Positions 21,786-41,393 of a stretch of DNA of 45,930 bases are shown one piece after another. Under the pieces are notes generated by a model. The model was not told where the DNA came from and did no database searches. It worked only from the letters and a program-made list of their open reading frames with translations. The position numbers were made by a program, and so were the translations under genes. Origin of the DNA: a virus. The stretch covers positions 1 to 45,930 of IMG/VR virus record IMGVR_UViG_3300009158_000071; one strand, given 5' to 3'. Numbering within the stretch: position 1 is the stretch's first letter; each line of letters starts with the position of its first letter.

Positions 21786-24700
21786 ATGGCTGAATTTAAA
21801 CTAGGTAGAATTAGATTTGTTTGGAAAGGGATATGGGAAACTAATTTTCCATATTTAGTTGACGATGTGATTAGTAACAGCGGCAAAAGTTATATCTGCG
21901 TCGAAAATCATACTGCTAGCGCACATTTTTCTACAGATTTGGAAATCATTCCGAGCAAGTGGAATCTTGTTGCAGACGGAACAACATGGCAAGGTGATTG
22001 GTTACCTACTCACCTTTATAATGCAGGGGATATTGTAAAATACGGTGCGTTAGTTTATATTTGTAATTTTGGACACACGTCTGCTACATATACTTCGCCT
22101 AGCTACTTAGGTTTAGAGCAAAACTTAGTGTATTGGGATCTGTTTGCAACGTCGTTTTCATGGAAAAGCACGTGGACAACAGACACACGATATAAAAAGA
22201 ATGACTTTGTTACTTATGGCGGGACGACATACGTTTGTAAAACACATCATGTTAGTTCTTCGTCTTTATCAAATGGATTAGAGCAAGATCAAAATAAATG
22301 GGACATTTTTAATCAAGGGATTGAATATCTCGGAGAATGGAACAGTTCGTCTATACGATATAAATTAAATGATGTAGTTAAATACGGAGCCAATCTTTGG
22401 ATTTGTACAAACTATCACACTTCTGCTACCGGCTTCGATGAAACAAAATGGGACATGTTTATTAACGGCCTGCAGTTTGAAGATTCGTGGGATAGTGCAA
22501 CAATTTATCAAATTGGTGATACTGTTACATACGGTGGATATTCATATATTGCAAAAACTAATAATACCGACGTTGTTCCTACCGAAAGTACAGCCGATTG
22601 GGGCGTATTTACTACAGGATTTAGTTTTCAAGGGGAATGGGATTCAGTAACTGAATATAAAATTGGCCAAGTTGTTAGACAACACGGAAACACGTATGTT
22701 GCTACTGCTGACAACATTAGTCAAACACCTACTACTACTGCATATTGGTCGCGTTTAAATTCGGGGTTATTTTGGACATCATCTACTCAATCATATACTG
22801 GTATTTCTGGAACAAACATTATCGGTACAGGAACCGGGGCGCAATTTGACATTGTTAGAACAAAAACTATATACACTGTATCGGTAACTGCAGGTCATCT
22901 AGGATCAAATTATGCGCAAAACGATACTATTAAAATTTTAGGATCGACCCTCGGCGGTATTAGTCCTGCAAATGATTTAATAATTACAGTTGCAACTGTT
23001 TCATCTGGTGCAATTGCATCAATTACGTGGTCAGGGTATTCAGTAACATGGAAAACCGGAACTGCGTATATCATAAATGATATTGTTATCTACGGTGCTA
23101 ACAGTTATGTGTGTATCTTAGAGCATACTGCAGGATCAGTTAATCGACCAGATGCAGATGCCACTGGTACATATTGGAATTTAATCTCAGCAGGTGCAGA
23201 ATATAATATTTTAACTACTGCTGGTGATATAGTTTATTACGGAGCAAACGGACCTACGCGATTACCAGTAGGTGTTAACGGGCAGGTTTTACGTTCAAAC
23301 GCAGGATACCCAATATGGGCAAACTACGGTCTTATTAATAATTTAGTGTATGTTGGTCCTTTAGGCCGCGATATTCCTTATCCGTTAAGTGGTGCAACTA
23401 TCGACCAACCGTGGAAAACTGTTAGATATGCTACTAAACAAATTGAAGATGGCTATCTTTTCCCTAATACTAAAACATTATTAATACGTAACAAACAATT
23501 TATAATGAAAGAAGTTAGCAACTGGGTAGTTAAAACGTACACAGTAAATGTTACTAGCATCGTTGATAACACCGCTCCTACACATGCTAACGAAATTATT
23601 GTAGGATCTGGTACAACAACTGCAAATTTAGTTGCAAATATGCCAATTAAATTTACAGTGTCAACTGGCGGAGTGACTGCAGGGACAAGATATTTTGTTA
23701 AGACAATAATTGATTCAACCCATTTTACAATTTCTACTACTTCTGGCGGAACGATTATGCCGTTAACTACTAGCAGCACTGCAATGGTAGGATCACTTTC
23801 GTACGATCCGACATATTGTGAACGTGATGTTGGTTTAATAGTCGAAGCAGTTATTTACGATATTTCGCACGGTGGTACCGCAAAAACAACACAAGCTGCA
23901 AAAGCATATTTTACGTCTGCAGGTAATGCGTATATTAACAGCAATTTTGGAACACAAACGATCCAAACAGTTGCAGCATACACCTATCTAAGTTCTTTAA
24001 TGGGAAATGTTGCTACTAATACTGCACCTACGACTAATTATCAAGTGACAAATGCCGTTGTTGATTTATCATATCAGATATTTGATTTAACGTTAACTTC
24101 AGAATTAAATGCAACTACAACTATTTCAAATTTAGTTCAGATAATTACTAATGGAATTAGTGCAGGCGTAGTTACTGCTATACCGATGGCAATTAATTCA
24201 AATACAACAATTTCAATAAAAACCGGTACATACCAAGAAGTATTACCGATTATAGTTCCTGAAAACGTTGCGTTAAATGGTGACGAATTACGCGGAACAA
24301 TTGTGCAGCCACAGGCTGCTAATAAACTGTTAGCAAATGACCCTGCAAAAACAATTGCTGCATTAAATCGAATTAACGGTATCATTCCAAACATTGTTGC
24401 TAACTTAAACGTTGCGCCAACAACCGGAAACACACAAACACAGAAAAAATTATTCAACACAAGCGAAAGCACTGCAACTGCATCGATTACTTCTAATTCA
24501 AACGTAATGACAACAGTGTTAGCAAACGGATTAGGTTCTGCACCTGCGTATGTTACACCTGATCCTGCAGGTTTCGTTGTTGGTTTTTCAAATGCTCGTC
24601 GATTAATTGTAGCAAACAAACAATTCTTAAAAGACGAAGTTACTGCGTATATGAATACATCATATAACTCAGTATGGACAGGATTAACTACTGAACAAAA

Positions 24701-27700
24701 AGCAGCTTGTACTAGAGACGTTGGCTATATTGTTGATGCATTACAATACGATTTAACCTATGGCACTGTAGCAGTACCTTGTAACCTAGCTACTGTAATC
24801 GCAGCTCGTGCATATTACAGCAACGGGACATTTGTCGAATTAGCAGGTGAAAAAACTGCGGCGTTGGCAGTTCAAGCACGAATTAAATTAATTATTACTT
24901 ATATTGCACAAGGCAACGATACTAGTTGGACACGTTCATCTGGCAATACTACTTTACAAGATATTACCGGAACACCAGGTAGTAGTGCAGCTGGTACTTA
25001 TGCTCAGAATCGTATTCAAGAAATTTACGATACGATTAATACAGGAACTACACCGACTACGCTTGCTCCGACAACTGCATGGGTAAGTGCTACGTTAACA
25101 ACTGCAAATACAAATATCCAAGCAATTAAATCTGATATTCAAACTGCGGCAATTAACTGGATCAACCAAACTTATCCTGCACTAGTGTTTAATGCAACAT
25201 TATGTTCGCGAGACGTTGGATACATTGTCGATGCATTAGGCTACGATTTAATGTTTGGCAGTAACTTCTTGTCAATTCAAAATGCAATGAGTTATTATAG
25301 AGCATTAACTGGTACACAACTTGTTCTTGCTGCACAATTCCAACCAACCTTAGGACTAATTGGATTCATAGGTGCAACAATTAAAGAAGTAACTACGGGT
25401 ACATATTATAATGTAGGAAGTTTACTTGCGTCTACTAGGGTAAAAGCAAGTGCAGATATTATTTACGATATGGTTTCAAGTAGCTTTGGTGCTGAGCCGT
25501 CGTTAGTATTACCAAACCCAGTTGGTTTTGACACACAATTCTTAAATGCAAGAACCCAAATTGTTCAAAACTATGCGTTTATTAAAGCAGATGTTAGCCA
25601 ATACATATCAAACACATATTCAAGTGTTTGGACAAATTTACAAGCGGCAGGCCAAGCAAAATGCCAACGTGATATTGGTTATATTTTAGATGCAATCCGT
25701 TATGATATTACATATGGCGGCAATAATCAAACATTGATTAATGGAAGTTCGTACTATTCAAATTATGCAACTACAATTGCATCTGCTGAATTAGTTGCAA
25801 TTAATGCTGCATATACATTCTTAAAAACATTAATTGGTCAAATTGCACAAAAAACAACCGTTACTCCTCAAGCAGGTAATGCAACTTCACAGGTAACTGC
25901 AGGATCAGGTGATAGCGTTGGTACTGCTGCTGCATTTGCTCAAGCAAGAGTTCAGAATATTATTGACTGGATCGCAAATGGAACTGCACCTACTACTATT
26001 ACTCCGAGTATTGCATGGACACCTACAAATTTACAAAATGCGTTTGCATCATTACAAGCTAAAAAATCTGAAATTCAATCAGATGTGCTAGTATGGGTTA
26101 ACAAATTCTATCAAGAAGTTAAATTTGACACTATCATATGTTCGCGTGATGCAGGTTTAATTGTCGACGCACTAAGTTACGATGCAGTATTTGGGAGTAA
26201 TTTTGCATCAATTCAAGCAGGTAGAAGCTATAACAGAGCATTAACATCTGTTGCGACTGTAATGAACAGCCAGTTTGAAGCAGAATTAGGGTCAATTAAT
26301 TTTATTAAAAATAAAGCTAAAATGGCAGTTGCAAGTGGCGGTATTGCTCAAATTGGATCAATTGTAAATGATATTACTGGATTTATTCAAGGCGGCGCAG
26401 TTCTAAGAATGCAATGGCCAAATCCTGCTTCAATTTCTAGCGTGTATGCTGCAGGCACAGTTTTACTGACTGATAACAAAGAGTTTATCAAAGCTGAATT
26501 AGTTGCATATATTAAAGCTAACTATCCAGCTGTTGAATATAACCAAATAACTTGCCAACGCGATGTTGGGTATATAATTGATGCTGTTCGTTACGATTTA
26601 ACTTATGGATACGGTATTACAAGTGGGTCAAGTAACTATGCATGTCGCCAAGCAGGACTTGCATATTATTCAAATGCTGCATTGCAAATTGATTCAAACG
26701 ATAAAACTGCAACATTAGCTGCATATGGTTATTTAAAAACATTAGCGCAAGCAGTAGTTCAAGACTCTGCAGTAGTATCACCGTTGCAATCAATTTCCCC
26801 ACAAGTTAGAGCTGCAACCGGTCAAACTGTTGGTTCGGCGAGTGTTGCTACATCAGTTGGTACATTAGTCGATGTTATTACGACTACTATTACTAACGTT
26901 GCAAACGTGCCTGCTGAAGATTTACCAGAAACAGCATGGGTAGATACTGGATTACTTACGCAACAAACTTCATTGCAAAATAACAGAACTACAATGCGCA
27001 CAAGTATTATAACTTATATCGGAACTAATTTCCCAACATTGACATATAATTCTACAACTTGCTCGCGTGACGTTGGTCTGCTAATCGATGCAGTCGGATT
27101 TGACTTATTGTATAATACAAACTACCGCACAATTGAAGCAGGAAGAAGTTATTACAGAGCAGCAGCAGCGTTGGTTGTAAATGGCCAAAAAACAGCAACC
27201 TTAGCAAGTTTTCGTTATTTAAAAACTTTAATGCTTGCAATTGTTAATCAGAATAGTACTGCAAATGCAAGAGTTAAAAGATTAATGAACTTGTTTATTA
27301 ACATTGTTGATAAAGGCGTAGGATTTACTCCTGAAGTTAACGGATCTGTAACTTACAATAATACAGTAGGTACAATTAAAGCAGCAGAGTTAATTTACGA
27401 AAATCGAAACTTTTTATCGTATGAAGCAACATCATGGATTACACAATCATACGGAGGGACTGTTTCTAATTTAAATGCTACTGGGTTTGTAATCACAACC
27501 AGTGTGTCCCATAATTTAACTGTTGGCGATCCTGTAGTGTTTTCTGGAACTAGTGCAGGTGTAATTGTTGTAGGAACTGTATATTATGTACTTACAACTC
27601 CGACTACTGCTTCATTTACTATTACTGCAACTTCGGGTTCGTTAACTCCGTATCCAATTTCATCAGTATCAAGTCCAACGTTGACCGTTAGATATTCGTA

Positions 27701-30700
27701 TGATCCTACAATGTGTAGAAGAGACATGCAATCTTATATCGAAGCAATTGCATATGATTTAAAATTCTCAGGAAATTATAAATCATTACGCGCTGCTCAG
27801 ATTTATAAAAATGCAGTGTACGGATCAACCGGTTCTGATATGTTCTATGTAAGAAACAGTACTGGTATTAGAAATATGACGCTAAATGGTTTAATAGGTG
27901 CATTAGCCGAAGCCAATGACTTTGGAACTAAACGGCCAACTGGCGGATGTTATGTTTCATTAGATCCAGGTTTTGGCCCTAATGACGCAAACGCATGGAT
28001 GACATCTAAATCATGCTATGTACAGAACGTTACTACCTTTGGATCAGGTTGTGTTGGATTAAAAATTGACGGTGCAAATCACAGTGCAGGGAACAGAAGT
28101 ATCGTTGCTAATGATTTTACACAAATTTTAAGTGACGGCATCGGAGTATGGGCGACAGGTAGTAATTCGTTAACAGAATTGGTATCAGTATTCAGCTATT
28201 ACGGGTATGCCGGGTATCTAGCAGAAAAAGGTGCTAAAATTCGTGCAACAAACGGTAACAGTTCGTATGGAACATATGGCGTGATTGCAGAAGGAACTGA
28301 TTCTTTTGAACAGCCGATTTATGCAACTTTAGATAATTTGGCAGCAGACGCATTTGTTGGCCTAACGGTAACTGACGCAGTTAATAAAGTGTTACGATTA
28401 GAATACCAAAACGCCGGCGTTAACTATTCTAACTGTGTTGTTAGCGTTTCAGGTGATGGATATAATGTTGTAGCAACCAGTGACGAATTCCGTGACAGTG
28501 CAGTATTCGAAACTCGATTACTTGATTTAAATGACGGTAACGGCTCCGGTGGATCAAACTACGGCACTGCAATTAATGCTGCACAAGGTGGTACTAAAAA
28601 TAGTATTACTATTGCAAACTCTGACACTGCGGTAGCAACTGCATATCCAGGAATGAGAATTCAGATTACTAGCGGTTCGGGTGTTGGACAATATGCTAAT
28701 ATTTTAACATATAGTAATGGTACAAAATTTGCACAAGTTTATAAAGATTCATTTACTCCTATTACTGTTACTGCAACTGCTATTACTAATAATTTATTAA
28801 CAGTAGCAAGTACTTCGACATTATATGTCGGAATGCCAATTTACTTAACATCTGCAAGCAACGGTTTAACTGCAAATACTTTGTATTATGTAATTGCTGC
28901 AAACTTCTCAAGTACACAATTTGCAGTAAGTACCGCAGCAGGCGGTAGTGCAGTTACTATTACTACTACTGGTAGTGTATCGTATCCGTTACTTGCATCG
29001 GGGTGGGACCATGTTATACCAGGTACTACAATTGCTACTTCGCTAGAGTTAACGTCTAACTATATTATCGAACCACGTATTAGCTATAGTGCGCCCGGTT
29101 ATACTGCAACTGCTAGATCATCATACGTAACTAATACATGGGGTTCTGCAACATTTGGTAATAGTAGATATATTGCAATAACTAGCAGCGGTACTGCAAC
29201 ACAATATTCAACCAATGGTAAAACATGGGTTGCAGGCGGTGTTCTTCCTGTGTCTACTACATGGAATGACGTTATCAATGGCGGCGGCGAAGGTGCTATT
29301 GCAACTGCAGTTGTTGGTGGATTAGGTGGTGCAGGAGCAGTGTTAACTGCAGTAATGGGTGTAACTAACAGCATAGGAAATCCAGGTACAGACCAAGTAG
29401 TAAGTGTTACTATTGTAGATGGCGGGCATGGTTATACATCTCCTCCAACAATTGTATTCACGCCGGCCGCAGGTGGATCAGGTGCAGTTGCAAATTGTAC
29501 TGTTCTAAATGGTAAGATTGATGCTGTTACCGTTAGTATTAACGGTTCAGGATACACGGTAGCACCGACTGTTTCTGTAGCTACTGATAGAGTTACACAA
29601 ATTAATGTTAGTGTGTGGGGCAAAAACTACGGAGTTGGTTCGACTACTGCAACATTAAGCGGCGGTGGATCAAGTAATCAAGCAACCGGTACTGTGGTAT
29701 TTACAAATAGTGGTATTAGCAGTATTATAATTGGAAATACCGGTGGATCAGGTTATTCATCGACTCCTACTGTTACAATTACTGACACTAATGCAAAATA
29801 CGTTGCAATCGCAGCTGGATCTACAAATAACGCATATTTAGCAGCAACATCTGCTGCTGCTGCTTCATGGACAGCAGGAAGTGCGTTACCTGCATCTAAC
29901 TTTGCAGCAGCAGCGTTTGGTAATGGCGTGTATGTTGCAGTCGGCGGCACAAGCAGTGCAACATCGAGCACAACTGCAACATCATGGATTAGCAGAACTA
30001 TTCCGACATTAGGTGCAGGGACATATTCTGCAGTTACTTACGGCAACGGTACGTTTGTGGCTATTTCAACTAGTAACAACGCAACTGCATTTAGCACAAA
30101 TGGTACATCGTGGGCTGCAGGTGGAAATTTACCTGCAAGTACTACTTGGACAAGCATTGCATTTGGCAACAACCGTTTTGTTGCAATTGCAAGTGGCGGA
30201 ACAACAACTGCATACAGTTTAGACAACGGTGTTACATGGTCAAGTCCGGCAGTCGGATTACCGATTAGTACAACTTGGATACGTATCAGATATGCACAAG
30301 GCGTGTTCTTTGCAATTGCACAAGGTACTACAACAGCAGCAACTAGTCCAGACGGTATCAATTGGACTGCCCGCACAATGCCAGGTTCGACGACTAATTG
30401 GTCAGGACTTGCATTTGGTAATGTATCTAACATTCCTCTTTGGATCGCAACTTCGAATACTTCGGGCGTAATTGCAGCTTCAATAAATACAGGTGCAACT
30501 GCGTTAGGTCGTATGAAAGCGCAAGCAGGCACATTATTAGAAGTAAGAATGATCGAGCCTGGGTCAAGTTATCCAAAAGGTACTGTATCTGCAACTACTA
30601 TAACATCTAACATTATTACTGTTAACAATACTGAAAATTTAGTCGATAGTCAACCGGTGGTATTTATAGGAGCAAGTACAGGCGGCTTAGCTAACAGCAA

Positions 30701-31775
30701 AGTGTATTATGTAATCGGATCAACAATTGTTACAAATACTTCATTCAAAGTAAGTTTAGCTGCAGGAAGTGCAACCGCAGTAGTGTTATCAACCACAACC
30801 GACTTAACTGGAACGTTCTATGCAAGTCCAATTGTAACACAAACTGATCCAAACAAAGTTAAAACTGCACCATTGCAAGCACGTACAGGGGATGGCGCGC
30901 TAGGAAATCCGTCGTTTAGCAATAGAGGAACAGGAAATATTACTGCAACTACTGTGTTATCAGGAGATGGTAACGCAAACTCTTATCAACCTACGAACTT
31001 TATTGCAGTTAGAAATTTGCATGCTGTACCGCAAGCAGGATCAAATGTTGTATTTGGATCAATTTCCGGAACATGGTATAAATTAGTAGCAGTTACTAAT
31101 GTGATCGGTGCAGCTGGATCTTATACTGCAACATTCCAAATTAGTCCCAGATTTACTGTATTAAATGCTCCTGCAGATGGTGATTTGATTACGACTTCTA
31201 TAAAATATAGTCAAGTGCGGTTAACAGGACACGATTTCTTATACGTCGGTACTGGCAACCAAGCACGTACTAACTATCCATTTACTGATCCGTCTATTGC
31301 AGTACAGGATAATCAACAATTATCAAGCGGCGGTGGCAGGGTGTTCTTTACTAGTACTGATCAAGATGGTAACTTTAACGTAGGCAACTTGTTTGGTGTT
31401 CAGCAATCAACCGGTACAGCAACATTAAACGCCGATGCATTTAATCTAAGCGGGCTACAAAGTTTACAATTAGGTGGATTAAGTGTTGGGGTAGGTAGTG
31501 CAACAATTAATCAGTTCTCGACAGATCCGTACTTTACTGCAAATAGTGACACAGTTGTTCCTACACAACGAGCAATCAAGGCGTATATTACATCACAAAT
31601 CGGTGGCGGTCAAAGTACGTTAAACGTTAACTCGTTAACTGCAGGTGTAGTTTATGTTGCAAATGACACTATTTCTACTACCTCGGGCGGACAGCTAAAT
31701 ATAACAGCAAAAATGAATTTTACAGGCGGCATTGACGGTGCACCTGTAGCACTTTCATTCTTTTTACAAAGATAA
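21786..31775 (+). CDS. Giant modular fibre protein 4 (3329 aa, repeat-expanded paralogue of fibre 3)
   Basis: This is the largest gene here, paralogous to the 2694-aa protein from start (MAEFKLGRIRFVWKGIWE) to C-terminus (STDQDGNFNVGNLFGVQQST). Residues 1 to about 450 hold seven chitin-binding-like W/Y modules with one 'GTGTGAQFDI...LGG..PANDLIITV' insert. A beta-helix starts near 520 (VYVGPLGRDIPYPLSG) and continues through GTYQEVLPIIVPENVALNGD near 811. About residues 925-1860 are three tandem repeats of about 300-317 residues, each with two 'C.RDVGYIVDA..YDL.YG' helical motifs; single motifs lie at 678 and 1977. The helix resumes at MFYVRNSTGIRNMTLNGLIG (about 2019) and IRATNGNSSYGTYGVIAEG. 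Later come 'GSGY..(P)T' strands and BNR-like repeats (about 2440-2890). It is a likely host-recognition fibre; stoichiometry and location are unknown. Confidence 0.82.
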   Translation: MAEFKLGRIRFVWKGIWETNFPYLVDDVISNSGKSYICVENHTASAHFSTDLEIIPSKWNLVADGTTWQGDWLPTHLYNAGDIVKYGALVYICNFGHTSATYTSPSYLGLEQNLVYWDLFATSFSWKSTWTTDTRYKKNDFVTYGGTTYVCKTHHVSSSSLSNGLEQDQNKWDIFNQGIEYLGEWNSSSIRYKLNDVVKYGANLWICTNYHTSATGFDETKWDMFINGLQFEDSWDSATIYQIGDTVTYGGYSYIAKTNNTDVVPTESTADWGVFTTGFSFQGEWDSVTEYKIGQVVRQHGNTYVATADNISQTPTTTAYWSRLNSGLFWTSSTQSYTGISGTNIIGTGTGAQFDIVRTKTIYTVSVTAGHLGSNYAQNDTIKILGSTLGGISPANDLIITVATVSSGAIASITWSGYSVTWKTGTAYIINDIVIYGANSYVCILEHTAGSVNRPDADATGTYWNLISAGAEYNILTTAGDIVYYGANGPTRLPVGVNGQVLRSNAGYPIWANYGLINNLVYVGPLGRDIPYPLSGATIDQPWKTVRYATKQIEDGYLFPNTKTLLIRNKQFIMKEVSNWVVKTYTVNVTSIVDNTAPTHANEIIVGSGTTTANLVANMPIKFTVSTGGVTAGTRYFVKTIIDSTHFTISTTSGGTIMPLTTSSTAMVGSLSYDPTYCERDVGLIVEAVIYDISHGGTAKTTQAAKAYFTSAGNAYINSNFGTQTIQTVAAYTYLSSLMGNVATNTAPTTNYQVTNAVVDLSYQIFDLTLTSELNATTTISNLVQIITNGISAGVVTAIPMAINSNTTISIKTGTYQEVLPIIVPENVALNGDELRGTIVQPQAANKLLANDPAKTIAALNRINGIIPNIVANLNVAPTTGNTQTQKKLFNTSESTATASITSNSNVMTTVLANGLGSAPAYVTPDPAGFVVGFSNARRLIVANKQFLKDEVTAYMNTSYNSVWTGLTTEQKAACTRDVGYIVDALQYDLTYGTVAVPCNLATVIAARAYYSNGTFVELAGEKTAALAVQARIKLIITYIAQGNDTSWTRSSGNTTLQDITGTPGSSAAGTYAQNRIQEIYDTINTGTTPTTLAPTTAWVSATLTTANTNIQAIKSDIQTAAINWINQTYPALVFNATLCSRDVGYIVDALGYDLMFGSNFLSIQNAMSYYRALTGTQLVLAAQFQPTLGLIGFIGATIKEVTTGTYYNVGSLLASTRVKASADIIYDMVSSSFGAEPSLVLPNPVGFDTQFLNARTQIVQNYAFIKADVSQYISNTYSSVWTNLQAAGQAKCQRDIGYILDAIRYDITYGGNNQTLINGSSYYSNYATTIASAELVAINAAYTFLKTLIGQIAQKTTVTPQAGNATSQVTAGSGDSVGTAAAFAQARVQNIIDWIANGTAPTTITPSIAWTPTNLQNAFASLQAKKSEIQSDVLVWVNKFYQEVKFDTIICSRDAGLIVDALSYDAVFGSNFASIQAGRSYNRALTSVATVMNSQFEAELGSINFIKNKAKMAVASGGIAQIGSIVNDITGFIQGGAVLRMQWPNPASISSVYAAGTVLLTDNKEFIKAELVAYIKANYPAVEYNQITCQRDVGYIIDAVRYDLTYGYGITSGSSNYACRQAGLAYYSNAALQIDSNDKTATLAAYGYLKTLAQAVVQDSAVVSPLQSISPQVRAATGQTVGSASVATSVGTLVDVITTTITNVANVPAEDLPETAWVDTGLLTQQTSLQNNRTTMRTSIITYIGTNFPTLTYNSTTCSRDVGLLIDAVGFDLLYNTNYRTIEAGRSYYRAAAALVVNGQKTATLASFRYLKTLMLAIVNQNSTANARVKRLMNLFINIVDKGVGFTPEVNGSVTYNNTVGTIKAAELIYENRNFLSYEATSWITQSYGGTVSNLNATGFVITTSVSHNLTVGDPVVFSGTSAGVIVVGTVYYVLTTPTTASFTITATSGSLTPYPISSVSSPTLTVRYSYDPTMCRRDMQSYIEAIAYDLKFSGNYKSLRAAQIYKNAVYGSTGSDMFYVRNSTGIRNMTLNGLIGALAEANDFGTKRPTGGCYVSLDPGFGPNDANAWMTSKSCYVQNVTTFGSGCVGLKIDGANHSAGNRSIVANDFTQILSDGIGVWATGSNSLTELVSVFSYYGYAGYLAEKGAKIRATNGNSSYGTYGVIAEGTDSFEQPIYATLDNLAADAFVGLTVTDAVNKVLRLEYQNAGVNYSNCVVSVSGDGYNVVATSDEFRDSAVFETRLLDLNDGNGSGGSNYGTAINAAQGGTKNSITIANSDTAVATAYPGMRIQITSGSGVGQYANILTYSNGTKFAQVYKDSFTPITVTATAITNNLLTVASTSTLYVGMPIYLTSASNGLTANTLYYVIAANFSSTQFAVSTAAGGSAVTITTTGSVSYPLLASGWDHVIPGTTIATSLELTSNYIIEPRISYSAPGYTATARSSYVTNTWGSATFGNSRYIAITSSGTATQYSTNGKTWVAGGVLPVSTTWNDVINGGGEGAIATAVVGGLGGAGAVLTAVMGVTNSIGNPGTDQVVSVTIVDGGHGYTSPPTIVFTPAAGGSGAVANCTVLNGKIDAVTVSINGSGYTVAPTVSVATDRVTQINVSVWGKNYGVGSTTATLSGGGSSNQATGTVVFTNSGISSIIIGNTGGSGYSSTPTVTITDTNAKYVAIAAGSTNNAYLAATSAAAASWTAGSALPASNFAAAAFGNGVYVAVGGTSSATSSTTATSWISRTIPTLGAGTYSAVTYGNGTFVAISTSNNATAFSTNGTSWAAGGNLPASTTWTSIAFGNNRFVAIASGGTTTAYSLDNGVTWSSPAVGLPISTTWIRIRYAQGVFFAIAQGTTTAATSPDGINWTARTMPGSTTNWSGLAFGNVSNIPLWIATSNTSGVIAASINTGATALGRMKAQAGTLLEVRMIEPGSSYPKGTVSATTITSNIITVNNTENLVDSQPVVFIGASTGGLANSKVYYVIGSTIVTNTSFKVSLAAGSATAVVLSTTTDLTGTFYASPIVTQTDPNKVKTAPLQARTGDGALGNPSFSNRGTGNITATTVLSGDGNANSYQPTNFIAVRNLHAVPQAGSNVVFGSISGTWYKLVAVTNVIGAAGSYTATFQISPRFTVLNAPADGDLITTSIKYSQVRLTGHDFLYVGTGNQARTNYPFTDPSIAVQDNQQLSSGGGRVFFTSTDQDGNFNVGNLFGVQQSTGTATLNADAFNLSGLQSLQLGGLSVGVGSATINQFSTDPYFTANSDTVVPTQRAIKAYITSQIGGGQSTLNVNSLTAGVVYVANDTISTTSGGQLNITAKMNFTGGIDGAPVALSFFLQR
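24558..27340 (+). repeat. Three tandem ~0.9-kb coding repeats with paired RD(V/I)GYI(V/L/I)DA motifs
   Basis: Repeat units begin near 24558, 25508 and 26415 at a 'P.P..f...f..AR..i..NK.FIK.EV.aYI' segment. Each holds a first C-x-R-D motif (Cys codons at 24708, 25662, 26553) and a second (25203, 26139, 27060). Between them lies 'A..yL..li..iaq...v.p..GN.tsQ' and a proline-rich 'GT.PTT..P..AW' linker. Solitary motifs flank the array at 23817 and 27714. The predicted content is helical, unlike the surrounding beta-helix. Confidence 0.8.
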
Positions 31776-31790: not shown

Positions 31791-32111
31791 ATGGCAACAG
31801 GAAGATTAGGAGTAGCGGCAATTACCGCTACAACAAACACAGCAGTTTACACTGTACCTACTGGATATTATACAGTATGTAACGTGGCATTAGTAAATAG
31901 AAATGCTACTGCTGTTAAAGTTAGAGTAGCAATGGCATCAACGTCATCACCGGCTGTACAAGAATGGATCGAATACGACACTGTAATAATTCCAAACGGT
32001 GTCTTTGAGCGCATGGGGCTAGTAATGCAAGCAACAATGAATATTGTAATTTATTCAGATACAGCTAACGTCGGTTGCACTGTGTACGGAATTGAAACTT
32101 CGACTACATAA
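31791..32111 (+). CDS. Small beta-sandwich virion protein
   Basis: The 106-residue product has the pattern AVYTVPTGYYTVCNVALVNR, then a VKVRVAM strand, 'WIEYDTVIIPNGVFERMGLV' and a C-terminal 'NIVIYSDTANVGCTVYGIE'. This matches both halves of the 218-aa protein at 33064 (WLEYDSPVAAYGVLERT...TYGIEG and YLEYNLTLAPGATYERS...AYGIED). The family is common beside phage fibre genes as a small structural subunit. GGAG lies 11 bases upstream of the ATG, and the gene begins 15 bases after the giant fibre stop, so it is co-expressed with it. Confidence 0.72.
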   Translation: MATGRLGVAAITATTNTAVYTVPTGYYTVCNVALVNRNATAVKVRVAMASTSSPAVQEWIEYDTVIIPNGVFERMGLVMQATMNIVIYSDTANVGCTVYGIETSTT

Positions 32112-33063: not shown

Positions 33064-33720
33064 ATGGCATCAGGCATTTATAGCAAACTATCAATAACTT
33101 CAGGTACGTACACCACAATTGCAAGCGGACCAGCTTCTGGGTTTTCTCAAGTAGTTACGGTGTCTATGTGCAATCGCGATTCGGCTGCATCGGCAAATAT
33201 TAGATTAGCAATATGCACTACTGGGACATCGACACCTTCAGCTACTGATTGGCTCGAATACGACTCACCAGTAGCTGCATACGGTGTACTAGAGCGTACT
33301 ACAATTGCATTAGGATACGGACATATTTTAATAGCATCATCAACAGCGCCTACATCGGTGATCACATACGGAATAGAAGGTGTTGGGACATCATTGTGTG
33401 GAATTCTTGGTAGACGCGATTTATCAGCAGCCTCTATCGTCCAACTTGTTGCTCCGCCGTCCTCTGGGCGAATTGTAGTTGCAACAGTTTCTATTTGCAA
33501 TCGCAACCCAACTACTTCTGTTATTGTTTCAATTAACGTTTCTGCAACTCCAGTAAGTCCTGCGGCATCAGACTATTTAGAATACAATCTAACACTTGCA
33601 CCAGGCGCAACCTACGAAAGATCGGGGGTGTTACTTGATAGTTCAGCCGGGATAGGTGTAATAAGTGATACTGCTAACGTGACTGCTGTTGCATACGGAA
33701 TCGAGGATATTGCATCGTGA
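33064..33720 (+). CDS. Tandemly duplicated small beta-sandwich virion protein
   Basis: The 218-residue product is two fused copies of the approximately 105-residue domain encoded at 31791. Copy 1 runs to about residue 110 (FSQVVTVSMCNRDSAASANI, DWLEYDSPVAAYGVLERT, SVITYGIEG); copy 2 covers the rest (RIVVATVSICNRNPTTSVIV, DYLEYNLTLAPGATYERS, VTAVAYGIEDIAS). Both keep the 'v.v(s/a)(m/i)CNR(d/n)....v.v' strand and the 'EY...l...g..eR' element. GGAT lies seven bases before the ATG. It is the last gene before the strong TATAAATA promoter. A structural accessory role is likely. Confidence 0.72.
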   Translation: MASGIYSKLSITSGTYTTIASGPASGFSQVVTVSMCNRDSAASANIRLAICTTGTSTPSATDWLEYDSPVAAYGVLERTTIALGYGHILIASSTAPTSVITYGIEGVGTSLCGILGRRDLSAASIVQLVAPPSSGRIVVATVSICNRNPTTSVIVSINVSATPVSPAASDYLEYNLTLAPGATYERSGVLLDSSAGIGVISDTANVTAVAYGIEDIAS

Positions 33721-33727
33721 TAAAAAA

Positions 33728-33735
33728 TATAAATA
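33728..33735 (+). promoter_or_regulatory. Consensus T4 late promoter TATAAATA
   Basis: An exact TATAAATA lies just after the stop at 33720 and 24 bases before the ATG at 33759. A near copy, AATAAATA, follows at 33738-33745. This is the best late promoter match in the window and drives the adhesin cassettes. Confidence 0.82.
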
Positions 33736-33758: not shown

Positions 33759-34502
33759 ATGGCCGGAATTCAACTAATTTATGATACTACATGTACATCG
33801 ACTTCTGGTGTGGGATGCTCTTGGACCGTTCCAGCAGGAACACGTAATGTAGTTTTTGAGATATGGGGCGGGGGCGGGGGTGGGGGCACTACCGGAACAA
33901 ATTGCGACTGCTGTTCGAGAGGCGGACCAGGTGCAGGCGGTGGGTATTCTAAAGTTTCAATTGCAACAACTCCTGGCACTGTGTATTCAATGTGTGCAGG
34001 TCCAGGTGGTATATCATCACAAGGATACGGGTCGTACTGCGGCATCTGCTGCGACGGTTGTGTCGGTGGAACTACATATATAACAGGTGCCGGATTATCA
34101 AATTTCTGCGCAACAGGCGGGTATGGCGGCACCAGTGATTTTAATACTAACTGTTATGCGCATTGCGGGTGTAACTTTTATTCTAGATCTGGCGGCCAGG
34201 GTTACGGCGGCGACGTTATCGCTAAAGGTGGTTGGGGAGTTATGGGAAGCTACTCCGGTACATCTCCCTATCACATTGATATACACGCTGGTTCAGCAGC
34301 AGGTCCAGGTGGTGGAGTCGGCGGCGTACAAATCGGCGGCGGGCTTTGCAACAATTCTTGGTATGCAGCTTCAGGTGAAGATCCTATGCATGGTCGCATA
34401 CCGGGCGGTGGTGGATCAGGGAATGGCAGTTATTCATGTTGTTGCTGTGCTGCTTTATTTTCAGGCCGCGGTGCTCCTGGCGCAATTAAAATTTATTATT
34501 AA
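33759..34502 (+). CDS. Glycine/cysteine-rich putative adhesin A
   Basis: The 247-residue product opens with a short head and CSWTVPAGTRNVVFEIWGGG, the start of the phage glycine-rich fibre-tip domain ('tWtvPaGvt.v.vevWGgGGgG'). Poly-Gly segments (GGGGGGG, GAGGGYSK, CAGPGG, GGVGGVQIGGG, PGGGGSGNGS) alternate with Cys clusters (CDCC, CGICCDGC, SCCCC); I count 19 Cys. It ends GRGAPGAIKIYY, matching the usual 'GapGlv.i.(y/f)' end. Gly-rich tips of this kind, such as gp38 adhesins of T2/S16-type phages, bind outer-membrane receptors. The abundance of Cys is unusual for a phage virion protein. It is paralogous to the products at 35023 and 36162, and is followed after 11 bases by its own small partner. 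Confidence 0.78.
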   Translation: MAGIQLIYDTTCTSTSGVGCSWTVPAGTRNVVFEIWGGGGGGGTTGTNCDCCSRGGPGAGGGYSKVSIATTPGTVYSMCAGPGGISSQGYGSYCGICCDGCVGGTTYITGAGLSNFCATGGYGGTSDFNTNCYAHCGCNFYSRSGGQGYGGDVIAKGGWGVMGSYSGTSPYHIDIHAGSAAGPGGGVGGVQIGGGLCNNSWYAASGEDPMHGRIPGGGGSGNGSYSCCCCAALFSGRGAPGAIKIYY

Positions 34503-34513
34503 TCGGTGAATAT

Positions 34514-35023
34514 ATGACAATAACACATAAAATCTTACTTAACAAGGATACTGGTAAAGTTGTTCAGCCGGTTTACTTAGTAGAAAACGAAAGACCAGAA
34601 CCTCCTGACTGTATTTGGCATTTTATCGAAGCCGGAACATGGCTGCATGATCATTTTTGTTGTGATCCTCCTATAGATATTAGCCACATTGATATTGAAG
34701 AAGCATATTTTGATTTTGAAAGTAACACATGGAACGAAGTACCATCATCGTCGGTACCTTCATTTTCAAAAACAAAATTTAACAGAAATGAACTGTTAAA
34801 ACAAACCGATCGAACAATTTCGGCGCTTACTGACATTGATAAAATTAACAGTTGGGCATTATATAGACAGCAGTTAAGGAATATGTTTGTCGGAGTACCT
34901 GAAGATGTTGATTGGAACATGATTGTATTTCCTAGAAACCCAGATGACATTGCAGTTTTAAAGAAATTAGCAGCAGCCGGTGACGCCGACGCTGCTGCTA
35001 TAATAAAAAAGGATAAATTATAA
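34514..35023 (+). CDS. Putative tail-fibre assembly chaperone A
   Basis: The 169-residue protein has an N-terminal part with AYFDFESNTWNEVP near residue 63 and a C-terminal part NRNELLKQTDRTISALTDID followed by WALYRQQLRNM and FPRNPDD. That C-terminal layout ('R...L..TD......YR..LR.......WP..P') is typical of the phage tail assembly chaperone family (Phage_tail_APC-like). Such proteins help fold or attach the fibre tip encoded just upstream. The stop overlaps the next start (TAATG at 35021-35025), which suggests translational coupling to adhesin B. Residues beyond FPRNP form an extra Ala/Asp-rich helix absent from its two counterparts. Confidence 0.7.
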   Translation: MTITHKILLNKDTGKVVQPVYLVENERPEPPDCIWHFIEAGTWLHDHFCCDPPIDISHIDIEEAYFDFESNTWNEVPSSSVPSFSKTKFNRNELLKQTDRTISALTDIDKINSWALYRQQLRNMFVGVPEDVDWNMIVFPRNPDDIAVLKKLAAAGDADAAAIIKKDKL

Positions 35024-35706
35024 TGGGAAGATACATTCAAAGTCCTGCAATTCTACTAGCGCCTCGATGTATACTTGAAGTTGTTGGCGGTAATTCATGC
35101 ATTTGGACCGTTCCATCGGGTATAACAAACGTTTCATTCGAATTATGGGGCGGCGGCGGGGCCGGTGGCCCAAAATGCTGCTGTTATTGCCAGTCAACAA
35201 ATGGCGGCCACGGCGGCGGGTATTCGTTAAAAACAATATCAACCTCATCCGGAACAGTTTTTTGTATTTGTGCAGGACCTGGCGGAGCAAGGTTTTATTG
35301 TGCATCATCTGCAACTGGTTGCGCTGGTGCTACTTCATATGTCACCGGCACCGGATTATCTAATTTATGTGCCGTCGGCGGTGGCGGCGGGGCCTCCGGT
35401 ACTTTTTATTGCTATTATGTGTGTACTTGCTGTGGAGGCGCAGCATATGGCGGTGACATTAACATGCAAAGCGGCCGCACGTGGAATAAAAATCGGGGTG
35501 GCTGTAATTATATGGCTGCAGGTGGTCCCTCACCGTTTGGTGGTGGTGAATCTTATTTACACTACCAGCAATGCTGTCCGTACATGTCTTGCGGGTACGA
35601 CGGGGTTTACCCCGGTGGAGGTGGTACGGGAATAGTTAATTGTTGCTGTGATTGCTGCGGCTGCAACGGAGCAGGAGCCCCTGGCTTAGTGAGGATAACA
35701 TTCTAA
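35023..35706 (+). CDS. Glycine/cysteine-rich putative adhesin B
   Basis: The second copy of the Gly/Cys-rich family has 227 residues, of which I count 25 Cys. The head MGRYIQSPA is shared with adhesin C (MGRYIDSAS). CIWTVPSGITNVSFELWGGG, then KCCCYC, GGHGGGYSLKTI, ICAGPGG, TSYVTGTGLSNLCAVGGGGG, YGGD and PGGGG follow in the same order as in A and C. Near the C-terminus CCCDCCGC precedes GAGAPGLVRITF. The loops between these anchors differ strongly in length and sequence among the three copies, as expected for receptor-facing loops on a constant scaffold. GGAT lies eight bases upstream of the ATG. Confidence 0.78.
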   Translation: MGRYIQSPAILLAPRCILEVVGGNSCIWTVPSGITNVSFELWGGGGAGGPKCCCYCQSTNGGHGGGYSLKTISTSSGTVFCICAGPGGARFYCASSATGCAGATSYVTGTGLSNLCAVGGGGGASGTFYCYYVCTCCGGAAYGGDINMQSGRTWNKNRGGCNYMAAGGPSPFGGGESYLHYQQCCPYMSCGYDGVYPGGGGTGIVNCCCDCCGCNGAGAPGLVRITF

Positions 35707-36146
35707 TGAACTATTATGCAATTGTAGAAAAAGACACTGGATACATGCAAGATAAAATAACAAATTTTTATCCAGAAGGTGAAGTTCGTCCGATTAACGA
35801 AGACGAGCTAGCAGTTGTTTTGTTAAATCAAGAATTAGTTGATTTATTGACGCTCACTGATCACAACGGATTAGATCTAAAACCAGTTGATTTTACTAAA
35901 TCTTATTTTGATTTTACTACTAGCACTTGGCAACTTGTATATATCACTCTTGACCAAGTTGACACAGTAGCTGAAAAAAATAAAGAAAAACAACAATTAT
36001 TAAACGAAGCTAATGCAAAATTACGGATTATCGATTTACCTGATTCGTTAAAGATTTTAGTAACAACATATATATCAGAGCTATCCAGTGTGGAAGTAAC
36101 AGTAGACACTGCTAATACAACGGTATTCCCTCGTATACCGTTTTAA
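35706..36146 (+). CDS. Putative tail-fibre assembly chaperone B
   Basis: The 146-residue protein starts MNYYAIVEKDTGYM at the ATG overlapping the adhesin B stop (TAATG, 35704-35708). A longer frame from 35652 would lie inside adhesin B and is not needed. It shows KSYFDFTTSTWQLVYI (compare AYFDFESNTW in copy A), then a charged predicted coiled-coil stretch (DTVAEKNKEKQQLLNEANAK), and ends TVFPRIPF, matching the FPRNP and WPTRP ends of its counterparts. The match to the chaperone family is weaker than for A and C and rests mainly on position, size and these two elements. Confidence 0.62.
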   Translation: MNYYAIVEKDTGYMQDKITNFYPEGEVRPINEDELAVVLLNQELVDLLTLTDHNGLDLKPVDFTKSYFDFTTSTWQLVYITLDQVDTVAEKNKEKQQLLNEANAKLRIIDLPDSLKILVTTYISELSSVEVTVDTANTTVFPRIPF

Positions 36147-36161
36147 CAAGGAATTAAAATT

Positions 36162-36869
36162 ATGGGAAGATATATAGATTCTGCATCTAGGCAGTTTTCA
36201 ATTGGTGCGCGAACACTAGATGTGCTTACTACTTGTACATGGACTGCTCCGTCCGGAGTATGTCGCGTTACTTTTGAAGTGTGGGGTGGCGGCGGCGGCG
36301 GCGGCGCTCACTGTTGCTGTGATTGTTATAGGGAAGGTACTTCGGGTGCAGGCGGTGGATATTCGAGTAAAACAGTAGTGACTTTGCCTGGATGTGCGTA
36401 TGTTGTATGCGCGGGATATGGCGGCATGGTAACTTCTGTAGGCAACTGTACGCTTCATTGGAATTGCTGCGGCCAACAAGGTGGTACATCTTACGTAACC
36501 GGCTTTGGATTATCAAATTTCTGCGCAACAGGCGGTGACGGCGGCCAGAATACATGTTATTGGGCCTGCGGCTGCACAAACTACTCGGGAATTGGATATG
36601 GCGGTGATCAAGCTAATGGTTGTATATGTGGCTCACCTGGTTTTACAGGCGGTGACACTGGCGCAAACATGTGTGTTTTTAACGGCGCCGGTGGAGCACC
36701 ATTTACCAGTTCTAATCAATTTGCAGTGTTTGATGCTTGTTGTAGATGTATGTTAGGCACGCCAGGCATTTATCCAGGGGGCGGCGGTACAACTGCGTTA
36801 TCAAGCTATAGTTGTTGCTGTTCTCAAGCAGGTGTCGGTGCAAACGGATTAGTACGAATTAACTTTTAA
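36162..36869 (+). CDS. Glycine/cysteine-rich putative adhesin C
   Basis: The third copy has 235 residues, of which I count 24 Cys. The anchors are in order: CTWTAPSGVCRVTFEVWGGG, HCCCDC, GAGGGYSSKTV, VCAGYGG, TSYVTGFGLSNFCATGGDGG, YGGD, PGGGG, SCCCS and GANGLVRINF. The poly-Gly run after the W is encoded by repeated GGC codons, so this gene is more G+C-rich than its neighbours and produces long false ORFs in other frames. It is preceded by AAGGA. Role as for copies A and B: a likely fibre-tip adhesin. The three may be alternative tips or co-exist on one virion; the sequence does not decide this. Confidence 0.78.
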   Translation: MGRYIDSASRQFSIGARTLDVLTTCTWTAPSGVCRVTFEVWGGGGGGGAHCCCDCYREGTSGAGGGYSSKTVVTLPGCAYVVCAGYGGMVTSVGNCTLHWNCCGQQGGTSYVTGFGLSNFCATGGDGGQNTCYWACGCTNYSGIGYGGDQANGCICGSPGFTGGDTGANMCVFNGAGGAPFTSSNQFAVFDACCRCMLGTPGIYPGGGGTTALSSYSCCCSQAGVGANGLVRINF

Positions 36870-36877
36870 GGATCGAA

Positions 36878-37348
36878 ATGACAGAATATGCAATTTATAT
36901 TAAAAAAGAAAATGGTATCCCGTTAAATGGGTTGTGCTTTATTGGAAGCGATGCACAGAGTGCATCGCTAGTAGTTCCACTTGACTGCGAGGTATTACGG
37001 TTTGATGAGTCTCATAAAGATTTTGATTTATTATACTCTATAATAGTAACAACTAATCCTATTTATAAACTGCCATGCAATGGCGGAATAGTGGTTAATT
37101 TTGAAACAGGTGACCTGACATTTGTTAAAGAAACTCCGCCGGATTTATTTGACGTTGTACGAGCATACCGAAATACCCTACTTGCCGACACTGATTATTT
37201 AGTGCAAGTTCCTGACTATCCAGGAACTTTACTTGATCAAATTCTTGAGTATCGATCTGCATTGCGAGATATACCAAATCTAATAATCAAAAACAACTGG
37301 CAAACTCCGGAAGACGTAGTTTGGCCTACTCGGCCAGACCACATTTAG
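36878..37348 (+). CDS. Putative tail-fibre assembly chaperone C
   Basis: The 156-residue protein has the clearest chaperone-like C-terminus of the three: VRAYRNTLLADTDYLVQVPD, then ILEYRSALRDIPN, then WQTPEDVVWPTRPDHI. This matches the Phage_tail_APC pattern 'R..RN.LLa.tDw...D....YR.aLRdip....p...vvWP..P'. An upstream VVNFETGDLTFV corresponds to the YFDFET element of copies A and B. AAGGA lies five bases before the ATG. Its 3' end overlaps by 23 bases the end of the convergent HAD-like gene. A hairpin inside that gene may end its transcript. Confidence 0.74.
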   Translation: MTEYAIYIKKENGIPLNGLCFIGSDAQSASLVVPLDCEVLRFDESHKDFDLLYSIIVTTNPIYKLPCNGGIVVNFETGDLTFVKETPPDLFDVVRAYRNTLLADTDYLVQVPDYPGTLLDQILEYRSALRDIPNLIIKNNWQTPEDVVWPTRPDHI

Positions 37349-37865
37349 ATACATACGCCGACAACGATTCGAAGTGGTCCCATTTTGACGGACCACTTCC
37401 GATTTTGATAGGACATGCCGATACCTTTTCTGCTGCATGTAAATCATTGTCCGACGTGCTTATTACTGGAACACTATTCCAATTAGTGTAGTGATGCTCA
37501 GTTACTCGATGAAACATTCCGGGATTAGGAGTTACGAACGGGTCCGACGATGATATAGCCGGGCACCAGTATATTCCTAATATAGTAACCCCACGATTTT
37601 TTAAATGTGATTCAATTGATACGATCATTGACTGAAACGACTCTGTTGAAAGTTGTTTTGACTTGAATTGGTTTACAAATAACACAATTTCAAAATTATT
37701 TTTTGAAAGTAATTTTAACCCATCGATCGCAGATTCTAAAAAATTTAAATTTCCTACGTATACGTTACTTGATTTTTTGTCAATCAATGTGTTAAATGGA
37801 AAAATTCCAATTATTTTTTTTTGATTGAGATTTATTTGATCTAATAAATTTTTATATCTATTCAT
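37326..37865 (-). CDS. HAD-family (GmhB/HisB-N-like) protein lacking catalytic residues
   Basis: The 179-residue protein follows the layout of D-glycero-heptose-1,7-bisphosphate phosphatase (GmhB) and histidinol-phosphatase: FLESAIDGLKLLSKNNFEIV, a VNQ motif (64-66), NRGVTILGIYWCP, TPNPGMF (112-118) and a late 'STSDNDLHAAEKV' segment. However, motif I DxDGT is replaced by FPFNT (22-26), so both catalytic Asp are Phe. The motif II Thr is Val64, the motif III Lys is Thr112, and the first motif IV Asp is Thr137. The zinc-loop CxH...CxC is reduced to one Cys101. The frame is intact with AAAGGA before the ATG, so it is probably a maintained non-catalytic protein rather than debris. It overlaps the end of chaperone C by 23 bases. 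A different function cannot be excluded. Confidence 0.68.
   Translation of the reverse strand: MNRYKNLLDQINLNQKKIIGIFPFNTLIDKKSSNVYVGNLNFLESAIDGLKLLSKNNFEIVLFVNQFKSKQLSTESFQSMIVSIESHLKNRGVTILGIYWCPAISSSDPFVTPNPGMFHRVTEHHYTNWNSVPVISTSDNDLHAAEKVSACPIKIGSGPSKWDHFESLSAYVSKCGLAE
37371..37407 (+). terminator. Possible terminator hairpin for the adhesin operon, inside the convergent HAD-like gene
   Basis: A perfect 10-bp inverted repeat GAAGTGGTCC / GGACCACTTC (37371-37380, 37390-37399) with a 9-base loop is followed on the plus strand by CGATTTTG. It lies 23 bases after the stop of chaperone C but within the coding sequence of the minus-strand gene. The T-run is short and offset, so efficiency is uncertain. 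Confidence 0.5.
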
Positions 37866-37958: not shown

Positions 37959-38888
37959 ATGCATAAAACAGTCTTTATTAACGGAGGCGCAGGCCGCATG
38001 TTGTGCGCATTACCTGCTCTAGAGCGATTCATTACAGAAAACCCTGATAGTTACATTGTCACCGAAGGTGGCTTAGATTTTGTATGGGGGAATAAACTAC
38101 TACAAGATAGAACTTTTGATGTTAATTCAAAGGGATTATTTGAAACCATTATTAAACATGGAGATACTATTTCTCCTGAACCTTATCGCGATTATGATTA
38201 CTATAATCAACGGATCAGCATTGCCCAAGGTTTTGATAAATTGATTAACGGTAATGTTAGATTAGATCATGATTATCGTCCAAATATTGTGCTAAACAAA
38301 GAAGAAGAACTTCACGGTGTAACTGTTGTTAAACATGCAAAAGCCGAACACAAACACACTAAAACTATTATAATTCAGCCAGTCGGCCGTAGTTCGGTTA
38401 ACGATGCCGATCTCGGAGTAGTTGCTGATTACAGTACACGAAGTTTAGAAGTAAAAACATTTTTAGCAATTGCAAAAGCATTAAAGGAACATTACAATGT
38501 TATTAGCATGACAGAGTTTCCTATTCCGGGCGATGACATTACTATTAATCCTAAAGATTTGACATTACGTAAGTGGGGTGCTATAATTGACACTGCTGAT
38601 TACTTTATAGGATGTGATAGTGTTGGTCAACATTTAGCGTATGCGTTTAATAAACCAGGCACGGTTATTTTAGGAAGTACGTTTGCACAAAATGTAAGTT
38701 ATCCATCTTATTTTAATATTATAGAAAAAGAAGGATTTGAGAAACGTTATAGTCCTATTAGAATCACAGAAGCCGGCTGCTACGAAGCTGATCGGATCAA
38801 TGATCTAGCTTTAGAGTTTAATGATACCGAAACACAACAACTTATAGACAATATTTTGTCTGATATTAGAAAAAAAATTGGAGAATAA
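37959..38888 (+). CDS. Glycosyltransferase family 9-like protein (heptosyltransferase-like)
   Basis: The 309-residue protein looks like a GT-B enzyme of the GT9 class. It starts VFINGGAGRMLCALPALERF, a glycine-rich loop with the conserved 'G..GD.l...p' spacing. The C-terminal domain has IIQPVGRSS (nucleotide-sugar side), then IIDTADYFIGCDSVGQHLAY around Asp220 and KPGTVILGST; 'D.fiG.DSg..HlA.a...p.v.lfG' is the GT9 signature. GT9 enzymes move heptose or related sugars onto lipopolysaccharide; the acceptor here is unknown. It is first in a three-gene late operon with a carbamoyltransferase and a 2OG oxygenase, whose start follows two bases after this stop. It could be a distant relative with another donor sugar. 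Confidence 0.68.
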   Translation: MHKTVFINGGAGRMLCALPALERFITENPDSYIVTEGGLDFVWGNKLLQDRTFDVNSKGLFETIIKHGDTISPEPYRDYDYYNQRISIAQGFDKLINGNVRLDHDYRPNIVLNKEEELHGVTVVKHAKAEHKHTKTIIIQPVGRSSVNDADLGVVADYSTRSLEVKTFLAIAKALKEHYNVISMTEFPIPGDDITINPKDLTLRKWGAIIDTADYFIGCDSVGQHLAYAFNKPGTVILGSTFAQNVSYPSYFNIIEKEGFEKRYSPIRITEAGCYEADRINDLALEFNDTETQQLIDNILSDIRKKIGE

Positions 38889-38889
38889 A

Positions 38890-40659: not shown

Positions 40660-41393
40660 TGTCAACGACTAAATGGTGGGATGGTCCCCCACCTGCAAAT
40701 AAATTTGCTCAAAAATTTAAAACACCAATTTACGTTGCAAAAGTAGGAACAATTGATTTTGTTAATGAAATAACTGATTATATTTTAAAATTAGAAAAGG
40801 ATATAATCGAAACTGAAGAATTAGTTAGCAAGGTTCCTAAGTCAACTGTTGACCCTTACCGACATACCCAACAATGGAAACAACATAACTTGTTTAACGA
40901 CGTGCCTGGCCTTGATGGTGATCACCTTCAACGATTTCCTAAGCATAGTTCGACTGGAATCATGTTTGATATTATCAGGGCATCATATCTTGAACATCTT
41001 GCTACATTAAGGTATCCAAGACCAAAAGTATATATACACGGATGGGCAAACGTATTACGAAATGGCGAATATATCAGTGAGCACTTACATTCTTCTAATT
41101 GTGAATCCTATTTATCGGGGTGTTATTATTTAACTACTAATTCTACAAATCTATATCTGCGAAGACCTGCTTCGTCCGGTGATGATGATGCAGATCAAGT
41201 TGCAATTAGCACAGAAGCCCGTAAGATGGTATTCTTTCCGAGCTGGGTACCGCACTGGAGTGATAAATGTACTGATGATAAATTACGTATTTCGGTTGCA
41301 TTTGACATCGTCTCTGAAGTTTCGATGAAAGGAAATCCGTGGCGCCCACACGTTTTACTAGATGACCCTGAGACTATGCCCGGGTTAGTATAA
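40659..41393 (+). CDS. 2-oxoglutarate/Fe(II)-dependent oxygenase
   Basis: The 244-residue protein belongs to the putative 2OG-Fe(II) oxygenase family common in marine phages. The double-stranded beta-helix core includes WANVLRNGEYISEHLHSSNC (His142-x-His144 as likely iron-binding region), ESYLSGCYYLTTNSTNLYLR, MVFFPSWVPHWSDKC with the distal His199, and LRISVAFDI with Arg210 placed to bind 2-oxoglutarate. These enzymes hydroxylate proteins, sugars or small molecules; the substrate here is unknown. The ATG overlaps the carbamoyltransferase stop (TAATG) and a strong AGAGGAGG site precedes it, so the two are translationally coupled. This suggests they act on the same product, for example hydroxylation followed by O-carbamoylation. 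Confidence 0.85.
   Translation: MSTTKWWDGPPPANKFAQKFKTPIYVAKVGTIDFVNEITDYILKLEKDIIETEELVSKVPKSTVDPYRHTQQWKQHNLFNDVPGLDGDHLQRFPKHSSTGIMFDIIRASYLEHLATLRYPRPKVYIHGWANVLRNGEYISEHLHSSNCESYLSGCYYLTTNSTNLYLRRPASSGDDDADQVAISTEARKMVFFPSWVPHWSDKCTDDKLRISVAFDIVSEVSMKGNPWRPHVLLDDPETMPGLV

Follow-up and report, generated by a model that had tools for sequence, protein, structure and literature searches.

The tip of a phage fibre is usually described either as a homotrimer or as a single adhesin that sets host range. What is to be made of a phage with three tip genes in a row, each followed by a small partner gene of its own? Positions 33759-37348 of an IMG/VR virus record (IMGVR_UViG_3300009158_000071; 45,930 bases, likely a fragment, taken whole and called the window here) hold six plus-strand open reading frames (ORFs), tip then partner three times over, in the order T1-A-T2-B-T3-C. 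The window also has tail sheath and fibre genes, and its source is taken to be a T4-like, aquatic phage. Three tandem tip/partner units had been described in an earlier note made from the sequence alone, and the six ORFs lie in just that order. Very probably these genes do encode tips and chaperones: three paralogous distal tip subunits of a tail fibre, and three Tfa/APC-type chaperones that would fold them. Do the three tips form one composite tip, or three homotrimeric ones? The first answer is favoured here, at about an even chance.

Tip-like proteins and chaperone-like partners

T1, T2 and T3 are 41-46% identical in pairs and have in common the anchor motifs quoted in the earlier note for these glycine/cysteine (Gly/Cys)-rich, fibre-tip-like proteins. 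All three exceed the gathering cut-off (24.3 bits) of the Pfam family Gly_rich_2 (PF21722; T1 28.2, T2 43.9, T3 36.1 bits), so the likeness is not a matter of chance, and the tips match phrog_4205 at about 1e-25 (T1 E 1.9e-25). Searched as a protein against named phages, T2 had no match at E 1e-5; T3, with a less strict limit, matched cyanophages.

An AlphaFold2 model of T3, made from 78 sequences (all models were built from IMG/VR rows only), has a mean predicted local distance difference test score (pLDDT) of 80.4 and a predicted template modelling score (pTM) of 0.81, with residues 1-21 disordered and free of helix. A fold unrelated to glycine-rich adhesins, which the earlier note would have counted against its idea, is not what this model resembles: the best PDB match by Foldseek is the tail fibre of cyanophage Pam3 (7ypx; E 1.3e-6, probability 1.00, template modelling scores 0.60/0.57), followed by a second Pam3 fibre entry (7yfw, E 7.2e-6), tail tip chains of mycobacteriophage Bxb1 and the glycine-rich region of ALK/LTK that binds ligand. 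In a viral structure library, the matches are glycine-rich proteins of cyanophages and other phages. The fold predicted for T3 is TNF-like plus glycine-rich, as at the end of the Pam3 gp24 fibre; T1 and T2 are assigned the same putative fold through their sequence similarity to T3.

The comparison with Pam3 extends to the partners. The gp24 fibre end, TNF-like and glycine-rich, is the proposed receptor binder, and is a homotrimer held 3:3 by the chaperone gp25, itself trimeric, with an N-terminal beta domain that holds the fibre and with C-terminal helices; the fibre was found in virions, the chaperone was not (PMC9608196). The window shares with gp24/gp25 (7ypx, 7yfw) a TNF-like/glycine-rich distal domain and a small chaperone of beta plus helical layout. 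It differs in having three tips without shafts, three chaperones and 7.7-11% cysteine, where Pam3 has a single homotrimeric fibre that carries an N-terminal helical shaft and is served by a single chaperone. An N-terminal helical bundle of the Pam3 type, which trimerises and docks on the baseplate, was not found in the T3 model or in 8 relatives, where N-termini are short and the glycine-rich domain begins 21-45 residues from the N-terminus (one position was missed by the pattern).

Among the partners, C (38.2 bits) is above the cut-off of the Phage_tail_APC family (PF16778, 26.6 bits), A (23.1 bits) is just below it and B has no match. A also has matches to phrog tail fiber assembly families, and its orthologues are present in 7 other contigs. 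B aligns with A and C over the C-terminal helical part, and its orthologue in locus L098 has a weak PF16778 match (E 6.8e-4); it is the weakest assignment of the three, and is best called a putative chaperone. At E 0.1, PF16778 matches 19 of 28 aligned partners. The model of partner C (pLDDT 88.3) has an N-terminal beta part and C-terminal helices, the general layout of Pam3 gp25. The earlier claim of chaperone-like partners can be made more specific: they are probably diverged phage tail assembly chaperones, with C the clearest case.

The cysteine content of the tips is unusual. They are 22-27% glycine and 7.7-11% cysteine, and all other tabulated window proteins have 0-2% cysteine. In 78 tips the median is 26 cysteines, with two invariant columns and several more conserved above 80%. 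These residues probably form disulfides, which would staple the glycine lattice and the loops and would close only outside the reducing cytoplasm. Phage Milano has disulfide-locked tails, with about 2% cysteine in its structural proteins (PMC10811340); literature searches for cysteine-rich or glycine-rich cyanophage tips found nothing relevant. The very high cysteine suggests a redox step in tip maturation, and no such step was found for phage adhesins in the literature searched. Against the window, 8 T3 orthologues have identities of 0.79 at glycine positions, 0.77 at cysteines and 0.44 at other residues, but predicted strands (0.57) are no more conserved than the rest (0.54). The earlier picture of a kept scaffold with diverged loops thus applies to Gly/Cys positions, and not simply to strands against loops. 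As a separate observation, the tip profile (A9/A11) matches the N-terminal part of the chain of RemZ, a glycine-rich protein outside phages, in PDB entry 8gl8 (E 1.6e-4 and 3.7e-5).

Might the Gly/Cys-rich proteins instead be free or accessory (decoys, or metal- or redox-active proteins), folded by their partners for such a role and not virion tips at all? This seems improbable. Their cysteine clusters (CCC.C) do resemble metal-binding motifs in sequence, and we know of no detection of the family in virions; but in cyanophages the array stands between fibre genes and downstream sugar-modifying genes, T3 has the predicted fold of a virion fibre, and the partners appear to belong to a tail assembly chaperone family.

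Copy number, descent and expression

A profile scan of viral contigs gave 79 loci, to which three lineage-specific profile scans added more of the window type; the counts below are of loci, some from near-identical contigs. Exactly three tips are present in 74 of 83 loci and two in 8, and one contig ends after the first tip. The full order T1-A-T2-B-T3-C is found in 8 distinct contigs (the window, L007, L008, L010, L090, L092, L097 and L098). The three-part module, probably of adhesins and chaperones, is real and conserved. In L091 (9655-10254), which scarcely differs from L090, a frame change interrupts T3; this may reflect an assembly or sequencing error, or the gene may indeed be broken.

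Arrays of homologous tips (phrog_4205) stand in the same place, before a Nol-like carbamoyltransferase, in cyanophages S-SSM7, S-CAM1 and P-SSM2 and in other IMG/VR contigs, and differ from the window in their chaperones. Cyanophage-type loci have three tips followed by one linked APC-type gene. In the L066 type one APC-type gene separates T1 from T2, and the long gene that follows T3 also has an APC match. P-SSM2-type loci (L006:9707-12573, L069-L073, L078, L083) have two longer tips, of 344-378 amino acids, around one chaperone-like gene. One chaperone per tip is particular to the window type. The array proteins of S-SSM7, S-CAM1 and P-SSM2 are annotated as hypothetical; near-constancy of three tips in a cyanophage-wide family still so annotated makes a composite tip directly testable.

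In a tree of 45 tips, the window lineage forms one clade of 8 orthologues for each position (support 100/99 for T1, 93/75 for T2, 100/99 for T3), and the cyanophage-type tips, like those of L066/L068, fall into groups of three of their own. A single ancestral triplication, with tips grouped by position across lineages, was tried as a model and is rejected by the approximately unbiased (AU) test (p-AU 1.2e-11 for T1, 4e-53 for T2, 7e-61 for T3). The three-tip state appears, from these trees, to have arisen more than once, independently in other lineages. When trees of T1, T2, T3 and the linked chaperone were compared over 30 non-redundant cyanophage-type loci, 0-3 of 31-40 supported splits were in conflict; with the labels permuted, 30-39 were. 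This shows joint inheritance of the three tips and the chaperone in these loci, with no swapping of single tips; it speaks to shared history and not to contact.

How is the array expressed? Intergenic spacings across the six genes are 11, -1, -1, 15 and 8 bases, and the -1 spacings are TAATG overlaps of the A stop with the T2 start and of the T2 stop with the B start, both as first noted. A late promoter had also been proposed. The T4-late-like element TATAAATA occurs 3 times in the window, where chance would give 8.4, and is thus not enriched there; sigma-70 sites turned up in a scan about as often as expected, and were therefore given no weight. Support for the promoter comes instead from the closest relatives, where NATAAATA is kept at the same place ahead of T1 (-27 in L007, -29 in L008, -28 in L010); in L090, L092 and L098 a copy of NATAAATA is farther away, 354-380 bases upstream of T1 and ahead of the small gene that comes before T1. 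What survives of the proposal is a conserved late-promoter-like site, without window-wide enrichment. This single site before T1, together with the translational overlaps, indicates joint expression of the array.

These results bear on the idea, also raised in the earlier note, that the array is a bank of alternative adhesins, which would widen or switch host range through expression choice, recombination or copy-number change. Tandem paralogues that vary most at residues other than Gly/Cys would suit such a bank. But the copy-number variation looked for among relatives is slight, with all loci long enough to judge having three tips, or two in one lineage; orthology follows position within lineages, the trees of the 30 cyanophage-type loci (tips and chaperone alike) are congruent, and joint expression is indicated. 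The bank now seems very improbable, although no search was aimed specifically at a switching element.

One composite tip or three separate tips?

The near-constancy of exactly three tips among relatives is suggestive of a single composite tip for receptor binding rather than a switchable set, and two published heterotrimers made from three neighbouring genes make such a tip a reasonable proposal. In the virophage DSLV2, three consecutive paralogous tail proteins, which group by position on the tree, are reported to form a 1:1:1 heterotrimer (PMC12724248). The window lineage likewise has three consecutive paralogues grouped by position; the DSLV2 proteins differ in being of the collar-domain type (PF07484) with a T4 gp37-like fold, and the main text describing them mentions no chaperone, glycine or cysteine. 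In mycobacteriophage Mysterious, gp35, gp36 and gp37, from neighbouring genes, are heterotrimeric fibre-like baseplate proteins (PMC13252515); these are accessory proteins of a siphophage baseplate, with no stated sequence relation to the tips.

If the tip is composite, T1, T2 and T3 would most likely be co-required subunits, probably in a 1:1:1 heterotrimer on a three-fold fibre, and not interchangeable. Each would consist of an adhesin domain like that at the Pam3 fibre end, TNF-like and glycine-rich, which has shed its own shaft and probably sits on a separate one made by the upstream fibre genes. The C-terminal helical domains of the chaperones are proposed to gather the three tips, after which the chaperones may leave. 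A mixed tip was among the options of the earlier note; copy number, positional clades and the two precedents favour it here, in the stronger form of a heterotrimer, though belief and doubt are about equally balanced. A fuller version is possible rather than probable: a disulfide-stapled heterotrimeric adhesin in which each chain has its own loops, the chaperone helices fix the 1:1:1 ratio, and the three-chain state was reached several times independently.

Two features of the proteins are relevant to subunit roles. The M[GA]RY N-terminal segment is present on T2 and most T3 but missing from T1 in 8 of 8 window-type phages, so the three tips are not equivalent. And in L097 (5545-5829, 94 amino acids) and L098 (6568-6849, 93 amino acids), partner A consists of the C-terminal helical APC domain only, with no space between T1 and A for a missing N-terminal domain. 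As it is the N-terminal domain that holds the fibre in Pam3, a helical-only A would more easily be a member of a mixed chaperone trimer, co-assembling with B and C, than a stand-alone helper. Separately, an M[GA]R[YF] N-terminus recurs on T2, on most T3 and, in other lineages, on small (91-110 amino acids) or fibre-like genes directly upstream (window 35023 and 36162; L008:5046; L066:7542; L074:7542; L036:7588; L006:9428), and may be a docking tag.

Another possibility is three separate homotrimeric tips, each with its own chaperone (3:3, as in Pam3), for different fibres or positions and different receptors or glycans. Tip then partner, three times consecutively, is the order this would predict, the homotrimer of Pam3 gp24 goes with a single chaperone species, the distinct N-terminus of T1 could dock elsewhere, and A, B and C have diverged strongly from one another. 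But the count stays at three in most lineages, no exchange of a single tip was seen in 30 loci, and cyanophage-type loci have three tips with one linked chaperone. Nor was a signal of co-evolution seen within pairs: in a distance-matrix test of cognate pairing with 8 taxa, a weak test at so few taxa, true pairs were not favoured over permuted ones. Three homotrimers are considered less likely than one composite tip, but are a serious rival to it. The earlier suggestion of tips matched pair by pair to their assembly factors keeps the support of gene order, but not of this test, and outside the window lineage tips outnumber chaperones in most relatives.

Several points weigh against a composite tip, or against parts of the case for it. 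Three independent homotrimers would account just as well for one chaperone per tip. The 8 two-tip loci, all of the P-SSM2-like lineage with longer tips, do without a third chain. Gene conversion within genomes (concerted evolution) may mimic independent triplication, and congruent trees are also expected from plain vertical inheritance, the comparison having no outside control gene. The cysteine count is odd in half of the 78 tips, so not every cysteine can pair within its chain. A Foldseek search of the partner C model against the PDB gave no meaningful solved match; the likeness of the partners to chaperones therefore rests on the APC profile and secondary structure.

Other phages with separate tips or fibre chaperones offer partial parallels. 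T2-type gp38 (S16, PP01) is likewise a separate glycine-rich protein that has variable loops and tips a trimeric fibre (PMC12892980), but it is a polyglycine-II sandwich plus beta-helix domain, mounted on a gp37 trimer and described without three paralogues or chaperones. A gp38-type fold was considered for T3: S16 gp38 is not among the 50 listed PDB matches, and Pam3, Bxb1 and ALK-type folds are. In Alteromonas phage V22 the receptor-binding protein gp26 is followed by a small chaperone, gp27, needed for its function (PMC7289586), the same fibre-then-chaperone order in a single pair with another fibre type. New with respect to known systems are the chaperone behind each tip and the 7.7-11% cysteine. 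Were an obligate three-chain tip real, host specificity could not be read from one gene alone, and selection would act jointly on three receptors or three sites.

Features and neighbouring genes

Tip arrays of relatives stand behind a long fibre gene, and 'tail fiber protein' genes stand upstream of the arrays in S-SSM7, S-CAM1 and P-SSM2; the corresponding region of the window is included in Table 1. For partner B, the ORF lister places the start at a TTG (35652), and the ATG at 35706 was used.

Table 1. Position and character of the array genes, the promoter element and two upstream fibre genes (window coordinates).
Feature	Position	Strand	Character	Basis
Fibre-like gene, presumed shaft	21786..31775	+	3329 amino acids	Position as in S-SSM7, S-CAM1, P-SSM2
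Small fibre protein	33064..33720	+	218 amino acids; directly ahead of T1	phrog_11338 tail fiber protein, E 2.8e-11
T4-late-like promoter element TATAAATA	33728..33735	+	31 bases ahead of T1 start	Sequence
T1, Cys/Gly-rich tip	33759..34502	+	247 amino acids; without M[GA]RY N-terminal segment	PF21722, phrog_4205
Partner A, tail assembly chaperone-like	34514..35023	+	169 amino acids	PF16778 marginal; phrog tail fiber assembly matches
T2, Cys/Gly-rich tip	35023..35706	+	227 amino acids, 25 Cys	PF21722
Partner B, diverged chaperone-like	35706..36146	+	146 amino acids from ATG	Orthologue in L098; alignment with A and C
T3, Cys/Gly-rich tip	36162..36869	+	235 amino acids, 24 Cys	PF21722; model
Partner C, Phage_tail_APC chaperone-like	36878..37348	+	156 amino acids	PF16778; model

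Upstream, two small fibre proteins (31791-32111 and 33064-33720), both of phrog_11338, stand on either side of a 303-amino-acid repeat protein and look like further paralogues preceding the tips. Downstream, a convergent minus-strand gene (37326-37865) with a weak PNK3P match (22.9 bits; cut-off 22) shares 23 bases with the end of partner C. Farther on are the Nol-like carbamoyltransferase (phrog_1601), about 54-55% identical to cyanophage versions, and after it a 2OG-Fe(II) oxygenase-like gene (together 38878-41393). A minus-strand gene at 41415-41864 looks, by eye, like a Nudix hydrolase (GGTN..REIEEEIGF).

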